From: Thermosipho sp. (in: thermotogales)
Lineage (GTDB): Bacteria > Thermotogota > Thermotogae > Thermotogales > Fervidobacteriaceae
Assembly (NCBI GenBank): GCA_017656335.1
Contig: JACDOA010000001.1
Span: 372,001-436,000, forward strand
Length of the DNA stretch: 64,000 nt
Direction of reading: 5' to 3'
Position 1 is the stretch's first letter; each line of letters starts with the position of its first letter. The position numbers and the translations under genes were made by a program. This document shows, piece by piece, positions 54,723 through 59,851 of the stretch. The notes under the pieces were generated by a model. That model did not search any database and was not told the origin of the DNA. It saw nothing but the letters and a program-made list of their open reading frames with translations.

Positions 54723-56216
54723 CTAAAAGAATCTTGTTATATCAGCAAACATGAAATAAAATACAAGTCCCATTAAGATAAAAAAACCAATTGTGTGAAT
54801 AATTGCTTCAATTCTTCTATCAATTTTACGTCTGAGAATGATTTCTAACAACGAGAAAACTATTCTTCCACCATCAAGTGCCGGGAGAGGTAATAAATTG
54901 AAAATCCCCAAATTCAGTGTAAAGAATGCTACTACTGTAAACATCATCTCCCATCCTGCTTTTGCTGCATTACCAATAATAACGGCAATACCAATTGGCC
55001 CCGCTACGTTTTGAGCACCCTGACCAGTAAAAAACAACCTTTGAAATGCCTTCCATATTAAGACAGCCGCAGAATTGCATCTATGAACAGCAAGTGAAAC
55101 AGTTTCAGCCAAATTTTGAGGCTTTAATACAAAACTTTCGTTTTCAAAAAAACCAGGTTCAGATATGATTTTAGAAAACTCGTCTTTTGACATTTCAAAA
55201 GTTTTTAATTTACTATCACGGATTATTTGTATCTTTAAAGAGCCTTCAAATGGTGATATAAAATCATTTAATTTGTCTCCCCAAATATCAATATATACCT
55301 GTTTTTCTGAAAGTCCAATTGCAGTAGCAAGTTTCACTATTGATAAATAATCATCTATTTTTAATTCATTGACTTTTACTAGTTTATCACCCTTTTCAAA
55401 TGGTGGTATATTTTTTGCAATCACAGGTTTTAAACCGGCATAATAAAAACCAATAGTATATCTTTCAGGTACAAATGAATAGTTTACAACTACTCCGGAT
55501 AACGTATTACCAAATTCATCAACAATTTCTACAAAACCTCCTAACTTCAGTTCCAGATCAGAACCGGGCAAAAAACCATTTATCTTACTAATTTTTCCTT
55601 CAATCTTTCCTGAAACGTCGTCCAAAACTAATACATATTCTGCGGGAGACAATTTAGGAGTTATTATTAAATCTAATTTCTTTTCTCCTCTTAATATTGT
55701 TAAATTCACAGTATTTCCCTTCGAAATAATCTCACTTACTTCCGATGAATCAAAAACTCTTTTTCCGTTGACTTTTAAAATAACGTCGCCATTTTGAAGA
55801 CCAACAATTTGAGCTGGAGTATTTTCAATAACCTTTCCAACTGTAACGGCAGGTACACCCCATATGGAAACAATTGGAATAAACAGAATATATGCTGCAA
55901 GAATAGAAAACAAGGGTCCAGCAAAAGAGATTAATAATCTTTGCCATGCTGGCTTTGAATAAAGGGAACTTTCTCCTTCTTCGTCAAGTTGTTCTCCTTT
56001 AAGCCTAACATATCCTCCAAAAGGAATAATATTAATTCTTAATAACGTTTTTCCAATTTTTCTTTTGTAAATAACAGGTCCAAAACCTATTGCGAATTCT
56101 AAAACATCAACACCAAAAATCTTTGCAAATAAAAAATGCCCAAATTCATGAACTATAACTACAAACATGAATACTGCAATAAATGCTAAAACGTAAATTA
56201 TCTCAATCACCTCCAA
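54723..56216 (-). CDS. rseP: RseP, M50 site-2 metalloprotease
   Basis: A 497-residue intramembrane zinc protease that cleaves anti-sigma factors and signal peptide remnants. The first membrane segment contains VIVHEFGHFLFA (HExxH); two PDZ-like regions occupy about 115-200 and 230-330, each with a PDZ-like GDVILKVNGKRV or GDKLVKVNELKI; the last segments contain NLGIFNLLPLPALDGGRI (the LDG motif). It is longer than the one-PDZ form. ATG 56216 overlaps the upstream gene by 14 bases. Confidence 0.95.
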   Translation of the reverse strand: MEVIEIIYVLAFIAVFMFVVIVHEFGHFLFAKIFGVDVLEFAIGFGPVIYKRKIGKTLLRINIIPFGGYVRLKGEQLDEEGESSLYSKPAWQRLLISFAGPLFSILAAYILFIPIVSIWGVPAVTVGKVIENTPAQIVGLQNGDVILKVNGKRVFDSSEVSEIISKGNTVNLTILRGEKKLDLIITPKLSPAEYVLVLDDVSGKIEGKISKINGFLPGSDLELKLGGFVEIVDEFGNTLSGVVVNYSFVPERYTIGFYYAGLKPVIAKNIPPFEKGDKLVKVNELKIDDYLSIVKLATAIGLSEKQVYIDIWGDKLNDFISPFEGSLKIQIIRDSKLKTFEMSKDEFSKIISEPGFFENESFVLKPQNLAETVSLAVHRCNSAAVLIWKAFQRLFFTGQGAQNVAGPIGIAVIIGNAAKAGWEMMFTVVAFFTLNLGIFNLLPLPALDGGRIVFSLLEIILRRKIDRRIEAIIHTIGFFILMGLVFYFMFADITRFF

Positions 56217-57597
56217 CTACCTTGTTTTTACCACTTTTCTTAGCTTTGTATAAATTTTGGTCAGCTCTATCTATTATATCAGTTACACTACCCTTAACAT
56301 TACTTGTTACACCTGCACTAAAAGTTAATTTATCAATTCCATATTTTTGCCAATTATAATTCCTTACTTTTTCTAAAACTCTTTGTAAAACTTCTTTTGC
56401 ATTTTCAGCAGGTGTTCCAGGAAAAATTACTAAGAATTCTTCCCCACCAAATCTTCCTACTAAATCACTTTCCCTTAAATTGTTTTTTATTATTCTTGCA
56501 AATTCTTTCAAAACTTCATCACCAACAGTATGTCCATATTTATCATTAACTCTTTTAAAATCATCTATATCTATCATCGCAACAGAGAGAGGAATATCCT
56601 GCCTTTGGGCTAATTTTGAATATTCTTCTAATTTATTGGTTATTACTCGTTTATTACTTACATTAGATAAAAAGTCTATTTCAGAATTGTCTTTATATTC
56701 GTTATAATTATTAATCACATTAAACAACATTGATAAAGCATTATTGGCTATAGAAACTATCTGAAACATTAAATCCTTATCAGTTACATTCTCAAATAGT
56801 ATCACTCCATGTTCATTATTATTCCTTTCAATTAAAAATATCTCAAAATCTTCTAATGTTTCTCCATTTGAATTATAATTACCTCTATATATCCATTTTG
56901 AAGGAGTAATCGGTCTTTTAAGATGTGCATACATTTTATTAAGTAAAAAATCATCATTATAAACAACTTCTTTCTTTGAAAATGAATACAATCTACCCGT
57001 TGTCGTAGATAGCAACAACAAATGCATTGAATCAAATATAAATAATTGCTTAAACAATTCATAGAGTTTTTTTAGTAAATGAAATTCATCTTCAATAAAT
57101 TCTGTAAGTTCAAGAATTTTCAATCTTATAGTTTCAAATTTTAAAGTTTCATCAAGTATATCAACAAGTTCTCCAAAAGGTTGTTTCCTTATCTTATACA
57201 CTTCTCTTGACCATGAAATTATATAAGGACCTTTTAAAAAAGAAATCAATTTTTTAATTAATTCTTCCCTTCGCAAACCTTTAGAAAGAAATAAATCAGC
57301 CCCACTTGCTTCAGCCCAAAATTTATTTATTGATTCATCAATTCCGGTCAATATAACTACACCTACTTTTTGAAATGAGGTATATGCTTTGATTATTCTA
57401 CAAACATGAATTCCATTCATTTTAGGCATAACAAAATCTGTCACAACAGCATCAGGCATAAATTCAAAAAATTTATTAAGTCCTTCTAACCCATCTTCTG
57501 CTGTATTCACTGTAAATCCCTCTTTTTCTAACTCTTTTCTTAAAAATTCTCGCCATAATTTACTGTCTTCTATAACAAGAACTTTTTTACCATCCAT
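56203..57597 (-). CDS. Response regulator-diguanylate cyclase
   Basis: A 464-residue protein with an N-terminal receiver domain (VLVIEDSKLWREFL; phospho-acceptor D54 in VVTDFVMPKMNG), a middle region of about 170 residues without a recognised fold, and a C-terminal GGDEF domain. GRFGGEEFL (GGEEF 384-388) is the active signature, and RESD (375-378) five residues upstream is the inhibitory I-site, so c-di-GMP feedback is expected. No histidine kinase is in the window. The order regulator-rseP suggests a link, but cause is unknown. Confidence 0.93.
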   Translation of the reverse strand: MDGKKVLVIEDSKLWREFLRKELEKEGFTVNTAEDGLEGLNKFFEFMPDAVVTDFVMPKMNGIHVCRIIKAYTSFQKVGVVILTGIDESINKFWAEASGADLFLSKGLRREELIKKLISFLKGPYIISWSREVYKIRKQPFGELVDILDETLKFETIRLKILELTEFIEDEFHLLKKLYELFKQLFIFDSMHLLLLSTTTGRLYSFSKKEVVYNDDFLLNKMYAHLKRPITPSKWIYRGNYNSNGETLEDFEIFLIERNNNEHGVILFENVTDKDLMFQIVSIANNALSMLFNVINNYNEYKDNSEIDFLSNVSNKRVITNKLEEYSKLAQRQDIPLSVAMIDIDDFKRVNDKYGHTVGDEVLKEFARIIKNNLRESDLVGRFGGEEFLVIFPGTPAENAKEVLQRVLEKVRNYNWQKYGIDKLTFSAGVTSNVKGSVTDIIDRADQNLYKAKKSGKNKVVGGD

Positions 57598-57669: not shown

Positions 57670-57698
57670 TTGACAAATGTATAAATACGCGTTATATT
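57670..57698 (+). promoter_or_regulatory. Consensus promoter of ispG
   Basis: TTGACA (57670-57675), 17 bases, TATATT (57693-57698). The -35 is exact and the spacer ideal. A start point near 57705 would leave a leader of about 14 bases with GAGGAG at its very start (57705-57710). Confidence 0.85.
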
Positions 57699-57718
57699 AT
57701 TTTCGAGGAGTTGAAAAC

Positions 57719-58753
57719 ATGACTAAAGAAATTTTGATTGGCAATGTAAAAATAGGCGGAAATAATCATGTTGTAATTCAATCAATGACTAATACTAAAA
57801 CCGAAGATCATAACTCCACTTTAAACCAGATAAACAAGCTTTATGAAGTTGGTTGTGAACTTGTTAGGGTATCTGTTCCAAATAATGATGCAGCTGAAAG
57901 TTTAAAAATTATTACAGAAAATTCGCCTGTACCTATAATAGCAGATATTCACTTTGATTACAAACTTGCAATTAAAAGTATTCAAAATGGTGCTAAAAAG
58001 GTTAGGATTAATCCTGGAAATATTGGAAGCGAAGATAAAGTTTTAGAAGTTGTTAGAGTAGCTCAAGAATATAAAGTACCTATAAGAGTCGGGGCAAATT
58101 CTGGTTCAATCCCAAAAGAATTTGAACATTTACCAAAAGTGGATGCCCTTTGCGAAGCAGCCTTAAAAGAAGTTAGAATATTAGAAAAATATGGATTTGA
58201 AGATATAGTTATATCAGTAAAAAGTTCAGATGTAAAAGAAACTATAAAGGCATATGAAAAAATCTCAAAACTTACAAATTACCCTTTACATATTGGTGTA
58301 ACGGAAGCCGGAACATATGAATGGTCCATAGTAAAGTCTTCTGTTGCCCTAGGATATTTGTTATATAAACACATTGGGGATACAATCAGAGTTTCTATTG
58401 CTGGTGATCCTATTGAAGAGGTAAGAATTGCAAAAAAAATCCTTATTTCATTAGGTTTACGCCAAGGTTTAGAAGTTATCGCTTGCCCTACATGTTCTAG
58501 AACAGAAATAAACGTTGAAAAATGGGCAAAAAAAGTGGAAGAAAAATTTTCATACATTAATAAAAACTTAAAAATTGCAATTTTAGGTTGCGTCGTTAAT
58601 GGAATAGGTGAGGGAAAAGACGCTGATATTGGTATTGCAGGGGTGAAAAACGGCTTTGTTTTGTTTTATAAAGGAAAAATAGTAGATGAATATAAAGAAG
58701 AAGAAATTTTAAATGAAATAGAAAAGCTTATTGAACTAGAGGAAGAAGAATGA
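57719..58753 (+). CDS. ispG: IspG (GcpE), HMBPP synthase
   Basis: [4Fe-4S] enzyme of the MEP pathway converting MECDP to HMBPP. The 344-residue chain has [26 protein letters not shown], the [11 protein letters not shown] motif, the cluster ligands CPTC and ILGCVVNG, and the terminal DADIGIAG. The start is ATG 57719 after GAGGAG; a frame-open ATG 42 bases upstream overlaps the promoter and is excluded. The 3' end overlaps the convergent DnaN-like gene by 26 bases. Confidence 0.97.
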
Positions 58754-59768
58754 ATCTTTTTCTTTGAATTGTTGAAATTATTAAATGCTTCTTTCCCAAC
58801 GATATCTGTAAATTTTCTCCTCCTATCCTATTTAAAGCACTTCTTAAAAAATATGCATTTACAATTGTTGTAAATCGTTCTTGAATACTTGTTTCAAGAA
58901 CCCCTTTATATTCCATTCCTTTTGTAAAAGTGTAAAAGAAAATTCCTTTCCTTGTGCCACTAATTTTTACCTGAGAATTTCTTCCAAGTATCATTGATCT
59001 TCTTAAGTAATGCTTTAAATGACTTGCTCCTATTTTAGCAATAATTTCCCCGGCATTTATTTCTTCTTCTATCAAAAACAACTTGTTATTTTTGATTTCT
59101 TCGCCACATAAGTTATACAAAAATTCTCCTTTAAAAATAAGATGATTAAGCCCTCGACCCACAACTAATTCTCGTGATGAATCGTCTTTAAGTGATTTTA
59201 CTATATGTCTTGATGAATAGTATGGAATACTCCAGAAAGCTGAGTCATAACTTTCGATAGAATCCCTTGAGGTATAGCAGATTATATCCCTTGACTGAGC
59301 GGCTATTTTTGTTTTATCTCCGAAAAATAAATCAACCATACTACCTTCCTCTAAATGTGAAGAAGCAAAATCTAAATCTTTAACAAAAAATGTTTTATTG
59401 AGTTTCGAAATATTATCAAACCTATCTTCAAATTTTTCAAATCTAAACTTTCCAACCCTGAGTTTCAGATTTTCTTCTTTAACTTTAAAAGTAACAAAAT
59501 TTCCATCAGAATAAATTAAAACATTTCCTTTAAGTTCAGATATAAAATATTTGAGAATATCTAAGGAAGTTGAAAATTTTAGCGATGTAGGATTCATCTC
59601 AGAAACCGTCGCTTTTACTGAAAAACACCCATCTCCACCATAAAAGACAAGTTTTCCATTATCATACGATACTCCTACCAATCTATTAATTGGCTCGACA
59701 GTCCCACAAACCTTATCAATATGTAATATGATCCGTTTTAATTTTTCAGCACCAACGACAACCTTCAT
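58728..59768 (-). CDS. Diverged beta-clamp (DnaN-like) paralogue
   Basis: A 346-residue protein. Three repeating segments suggest the three-domain sliding-clamp fold: an N-terminal [36 protein letters not shown] (like the ATDLE part), and a C-terminal [45 protein letters not shown], which parallels the FNPKYLLDVLK ... YVVMPMRL end of bacterial DnaN. It is not the standard dnaN: it is shorter, strongly diverged and not beside dnaA or gyr genes. Its promoter (TATAAT at 59798-59803, minus) sits between two terminators. I judge the fold by eye. Confidence 0.65.
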
Positions 59769-59811
59769 ATTTCACCTCATACATACTCCTTACAAATATT
59801 ATATCAACTAA

Positions 59812-59851
59812 ACAAAAATAAAACCACCCCTTGATTAATTCAAGGGGTGGT
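59812..59851 (-). terminator. Rho-independent terminator of the binding-protein gene
   Basis: A 12-bp stem ACCACCCCTTGA (59823-59834) / TCAAGGGGTGGT (59840-59851) with a 5-base loop, followed on the minus strand by TTTTATTTTT (59813-59822). It ends the UgpB-like gene transcript. Confidence 0.95.

Follow-up and report, generated by a model that had tools for sequence, protein, structure and literature searches.

Bacteria are described in textbooks as having one sliding clamp; where a second one is known, it is either a duplicate that resembles the first or a gene carried by a phage. A gene that lies tail to tail with ispG in the 64,000-nucleotide stretch of Thermosipho DNA analysed here (the window) raises the question of whether its product is a further clamp and, if so, what such a protein would do beside the ordinary clamp, DnaN. 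A preliminary description, which saw three clamp-like segments in the product, had suggested that it may be a second clamp or a clamp-derived regulator. It proposed a profile search against DnaN, a comparison of the predicted structure with the E. coli clamp, a check for a standard dnaN elsewhere in the genome and an inspection of the clamp peptide-binding pocket. By its named relatives, the window belongs to a Thermosipho-like member of Thermotogota. The locus is organised as follows.

57677..58753, plus strand: ispG, convergent to the clamp-like gene (TIGR00612, 377 bits)
58728..59768, minus strand: gene for the clamp-like protein, a DnaN paralogue; open reading frame of 346 amino acids with an ATG start
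59773..59778, minus strand: Shine-Dalgarno-like GAGGTG 5' of the clamp-like start codon, read from the sequence
59823..59851, minus strand: intrinsic-terminator-like hairpin of 12 pairs with a T tail, 3' of the upstream sugar-binding-protein gene

The 346-residue frame on the opposite strand and the 26 bases that it shares with ispG (58728-58753) were described correctly, and the frame has both an ATG and a Shine-Dalgarno-like sequence. Because the strong hairpin at 59823-59851 closes the sugar-binding-protein gene, the clamp-like gene in the window is probably transcribed alone. The further suggestion that RNA from the overlap might affect ispG messages found no support. Convergent partners change from lineage to lineage (ispG, hslO, an rluD-like gene, or a gene in a flagellar neighbourhood) and may be missing altogether, which is what compact genomes would lead one to expect, so regulation of ispG through the overlap is not supported. 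Antisense control of ispG was set aside on this ground and because no Rfam family was found at the overlap. Elsewhere in the window (54723-57597), the RseP gene (TIGR00054) and the same-strand gene before it, which encodes a receiver-GGDEF-like protein, overlap by 14 bases, as if the two were cotranscribed.

An AlphaFold2 model of the clamp-like protein, computed from seven sequences only (pLDDT 88.7, pTM 0.87), contains three clamp domains, in agreement with the three segments noted previously.

59430..59768, minus strand: clamp domain 1, residues 1-113, from AlphaFold2 elements; matches the DnaN domain 1 profile at E=1.2e-9
59055..59429, minus strand: clamp domain 2, residues 114-238, from AlphaFold2; best on DnaN domain 2, a match that is weak alone (E=1.4e-4)
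58731..59054, minus strand: clamp domain 3, residues 239-346, from AlphaFold2; matches the DnaN domain 3 profile at E=2.8e-8

Each domain profile is thus best on its colinear DnaN counterpart, domain 1 by a small margin, and a circular shift of the domain order, in which domain 1 would resemble DnaN domain 2, was rejected. Foldseek places E. coli beta clamps at the top of its PDB matches (TM ~0.82, E=4e-21), which answers the structural comparison proposed earlier. A second model, of a Fervidobacterium orthologue that is 29% identical, was built from the same seven sequences and has the same fold. The protein is therefore predicted to have the three-domain sliding-clamp fold, and it is not a PCNA, which has two clamp domains per chain instead of three.

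Homology to DnaN becomes visible only at the level of the family. As a single sequence, the protein has a Pfam match below threshold (14.3 bits against a cut-off of 24.4, E=0.047), no NCBIfam match and no clamp match at sequence level in the PDB. None of the curated DnaN cut-offs (TIGR00663, PF00712, PF02767, PF02768) is reached, and BLASTP finds no meaningful similarity to the DnaN of the same genome. The profile search, when run with a 51-member family profile, aligns end to end with the DnaN profile at E=3.9e-15 in local mode and E=6e-21 in global mode, each a single comparison; a 28-member profile has the beta clamp as its sole PDB match (E=4e-6). With the single-sequence match below threshold, it is only through the family profile that the resemblance lies far beyond chance. 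Judged by these profiles, the protein is homologous to DnaN, and a chance resemblance is ruled out by the predicted fold, the Foldseek matches and the profile alignment.

How widely the gene occurs was examined with two family profiles (A1 and A4). It is present in 98 of 103 Thermotogota genomes, nearly always as a single gene (one fragment and one broken copy are among them), and a family-level survey found one copy in each of 20 family genomes. Outside the phylum, nothing in 287 genomes scored above 44 bits, compared with at least 247 for intact family members, and the seven outside loci that were retrieved all proved to be ordinary DnaN, which scores at that level. The five Thermotogota genomes that lack the gene are G029, G031, G032, G047 and G048; the two genomes of family f6 and the two of genus g10 are among them, and the weak profile matches in G029 and G047 are their DnaN. 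The gene may thus not be strictly needed, although these assemblies are incomplete or fragmented. Its absence is not coupled to loss of polC, as these genomes retain PolC. Comparisons with congeners by the Nei-Gojobori method (dN ~0.08-0.22, dS ~1.2-1.7) show a coding sequence under purifying selection. In one genome (G023:C1, L166:3553-5101), a nearly exact partial copy comprising domains 2-3 follows the clamp-like gene in tandem, and the first copy has an altered end; this is a recent duplication.

A maximum-likelihood tree sets the clamp-like family apart from all sampled DnaN with support of 100/100, on branches so long that the tree accommodates an early duplication within the phylum and an older origin alike. 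On the strength of this separate clade and the lack of BLASTP similarity, a recent duplicate of the genome's own DnaN was rejected. Phage cargo was rejected as well, since the family has no sequence match in phages and no confirmed match in viral contigs, and the gene is fixed in the chromosomes of the phylum. Homology and distribution together make the protein a paralogue of the beta sliding clamp of bacteria, one that is specific to Thermotogota.

It is not the only clamp of its genome. A standard dnaN, the one that the preliminary description thought worth looking for, lies at C3:42099-43190 (TIGR00663, 243 bits), which rules out that the clamp-like gene is the genome's only dnaN or has replaced it. 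Across the phylum, DnaN was found in 100 of 103 genomes, as was PolC. The first half of the earlier proposal, a second clamp or clamp-derived protein, is therefore borne out by fold, homology and phylum-wide conservation, while nothing speaks for "regulator"; the neighbouring genes, in those genomes where they are informative, point to replication (ruvC-polC). Additional DnaN-like genes were encountered during the survey. In one genome a second DnaN, also complete, clusters with DnaN from outside Thermotogota (L063, G002:C23:20508-21593) and is either bin contamination or a mobile element. Another genome has an open frame of 502 aa with an additional DnaN-like stretch that scores 125 bits with TIGR00663, below the cut-off (L132, G055:C55:30330-31463).

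The most informative context is that of polC. In 30 genomes from 12 genera and two families, coordinates place the clamp-like gene directly 3' of polC on the same strand: 16 of 17 genomes in family f9 and 14 of 21 in f10, where genus g32 is the exception. The order at the linked loci is ruvC-polC-clamp-like, with the identities of PolC and RuvC checked, and the gap between polC and the clamp-like gene is -11 to +11 bases at the 11 loci measured. Linkage is limited to f9 and part of f10; elsewhere the contexts are unrelated and include alaS/hslO, tsaD, ddl, ftsY, ychF and, as in the window, ispG. Because the linkage is strong where present and absent elsewhere, we regard the connection to PolC as suggestive. 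Thermotogota PolC retains the QxxLF clamp-binding motif at its C-terminal end, so DnaN can remain the clamp of PolC. A separate observation concerns G081:C1:1815500-1834500 (L165), where a stop-interrupted second DnaN and a second PolC-like frame, shorter at 971 aa, are ~11 kb apart. Only the part of this frame from about position 380 onwards fits the family model, and the pair is possibly a mobile replicon. Similar short PolC-like frames occur in G080, G082, G091-G096, G098 and G099.

The clamp-like protein appears poorly equipped to recognise the QxxLF motif of PolC. In Thermotogota DnaN, the partner pocket is among the most conserved positions. The pocket inspection gave a negative answer for the clamp-like family: the residues of the domain 2/3 pocket (D173, G174, R176, P242, V247, P363 and R365 of DnaN) are not conserved. 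It is thus unlikely that the protein substitutes for DnaN at PolC through the clamp motif. The family has conserved residues of its own.

59625..59633, minus strand: conserved turn D46-G47-C48 (alignment A4), placed by secondary-structure equivalence
59106..59108, minus strand: C221, present in 48 of 51 family members; absent, like C48, from family f11
59196..59210, minus strand: R187-H188-x-x-K191 in the domain 2 pore helix; all 51 sequences have R187 and K191

Several members have no cysteines other than C48 and C221, whose joint loss in f11 represents one evolutionary event. The model would place the D46-G47-C48 turn and C221 at the domain 1/2 junction, and we infer from this placement that they form the counterpart of the DnaN pocket.

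Loss of the pocket and a conserved junction with a cysteine pair might also be expected if the fold had been reused as a protein platform, a scaffold or regulator that does not bind DNA, and the dispersed gene contexts in Thermotogales, which give no replication signal, would agree with this. However, conservation in the family is concentrated in two kinds of element, the alpha1-beta2 loops and the six helices of the pore (Mann-Whitney p=8e-16), and residues that line the pore and contact DNA are not what a mere scaffold needs. We consider the scaffold reading improbable. The equivalents of two such loops, named I and II, touch the DNA in E. coli beta (PMC5042465). Residue counts, made over 51 family sequences with DnaN positions mapped through the profile alignment, show that position 188 is H or R in every sequence. 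An acidic residue is kept (E141, 48 of 51) at the position of E. coli D150, which is reported as needed for viability (PMC5042465). Many pore and loop residues themselves differ between the family and DnaN, R152-Y154 of E. coli beta are deleted, and loop II is shortened.

The dimer interface is altered in a mixed manner. Its ionic residues in E. coli beta (R103, R105, E301 and E304) are not kept, while the hydrophobic ones largely are, with leucine at the F106 position in 44 of 51 sequences and mostly hydrophobic residues at the L108 position. With the ionic residues lost and loop II shortened, ring closure and loading are uncertain. Moreover, the family has net charges of -4 to +19 (median pI 8.8), compared with -6 to -28 (median pI 4.8) for DnaN of the same phylum; the window protein stands at +13 (pI 9.4), with values close to neutral in Fervidobacterium and Thermotoga. 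The herpesvirus processivity factor UL42, a PCNA-like two-domain viral monomer, combines the clamp fold with a basic surface. An open monomeric processivity or repair factor of this kind, binding DNA through basic surfaces without ring closure, would fit the raised charge and the lost salt bridges, but the retained hydrophobics suggest a dimer contact and some members are neutral. This reading appears unlikely. Alternatively, the protein might pair with DnaN in a mixed ring with one canonical pocket, an arrangement that would restrict how many partners can bind. Nearly every genome has both proteins, and the partly conserved hydrophobic interface would permit such pairing. Nevertheless, the positions of R103/R105 and E301/E304 offer no charge complementarity to DnaN, and the clamp-like gene adjoins dnaN in none of the loci examined, so that a heterodimer seems quite unlikely.

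The interpretation that we favour, with a probability of roughly 0.55, is an accessory DNA-holding clamp paralogue with rewired partners, which would serve the PolC replisome, or repair linked to ruvC and polC, beside DnaN. It draws on the kept pore and loops, the lost canonical pocket, the raised charge, the retention of DnaN and of the PolC QxxLF motif, and the polC operon linkage. In this reading the protein retains the three-domain, DNA-facing architecture of a clamp and would hold DNA through its pore-facing basic surface, in all probability as a dimer with the shape of a ring or a crescent. Partner recognition would have been rewired, with the domain 2/3 pocket for clamp motifs gone and partners bound instead at the conserved D46-G47-C48/C221 site. 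The protein would work beside DnaN rather than in its place. A bolder proposal, tentative and in our view doubtful, is that throughout the phylum it is a second clamp of the PolC replisome that encircles DNA and is essential or nearly so, its partner pocket having moved from the domain 2/3 to the domain 1/2 junction (D46-G47-C48/C221).

These findings suggest an extra, undescribed part of the DNA replication or repair machinery of Thermotogota. This deep-branching phylum as a whole appears to have retained, beside the ordinary clamp, a much changed second one that the curated families used here do not recognise. A literature search of limited reach returned nothing relevant on a second clamp in Thermotoga, nor any phylum-wide, pocket-less, polC-linked clamp paralogue. 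If the protein acts on DNA, the picture of the Thermotogota replisome changes, and the family becomes a natural experiment for separating the clamp features needed to hold DNA from those needed to bind partners. If the two-clamp reading is true, these bacteria use two clamps, each with clients of its own. Given its thermophile origin, the protein should be easily produced and crystallised.

Among known systems, phage-encoded beta clamps (BFVD predicted structures) are an equally good structural match (TM 0.83), but they differ in that the clamp-like gene is chromosomal and without sequence match in phages or confirmed match in viral contigs. UL42 resembles the protein by its clamp fold and basic surface, and by analogy the two might share direct DNA binding. 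Many Bacillus species have a second dnaN whose product, DnaN-2, shares ~40% with DnaN-1 and can join replication (PMC3290774). That gene is likewise a second clamp gene beside dnaN in the genome's complement, whereas the clamp-like family is far more diverged, phylum-wide and a clade apart from all sampled DnaN. The closest comparison is with DnaN itself (TIGR00663; PF00712/PF02767/PF02768), with which the protein shares three colinear clamp domains, conserved basic pore-helix residues, two DNA-contact loops and a similar length. It differs from DnaN in having ~14% identity, below all curated cut-offs, in the loss of the TDGHRL-type turn and the PMR-type C-terminus of the peptide pocket, in a net positive or neutral charge where DnaN is strongly acidic, and in a shortened loop II and a new DGC/C221 site.
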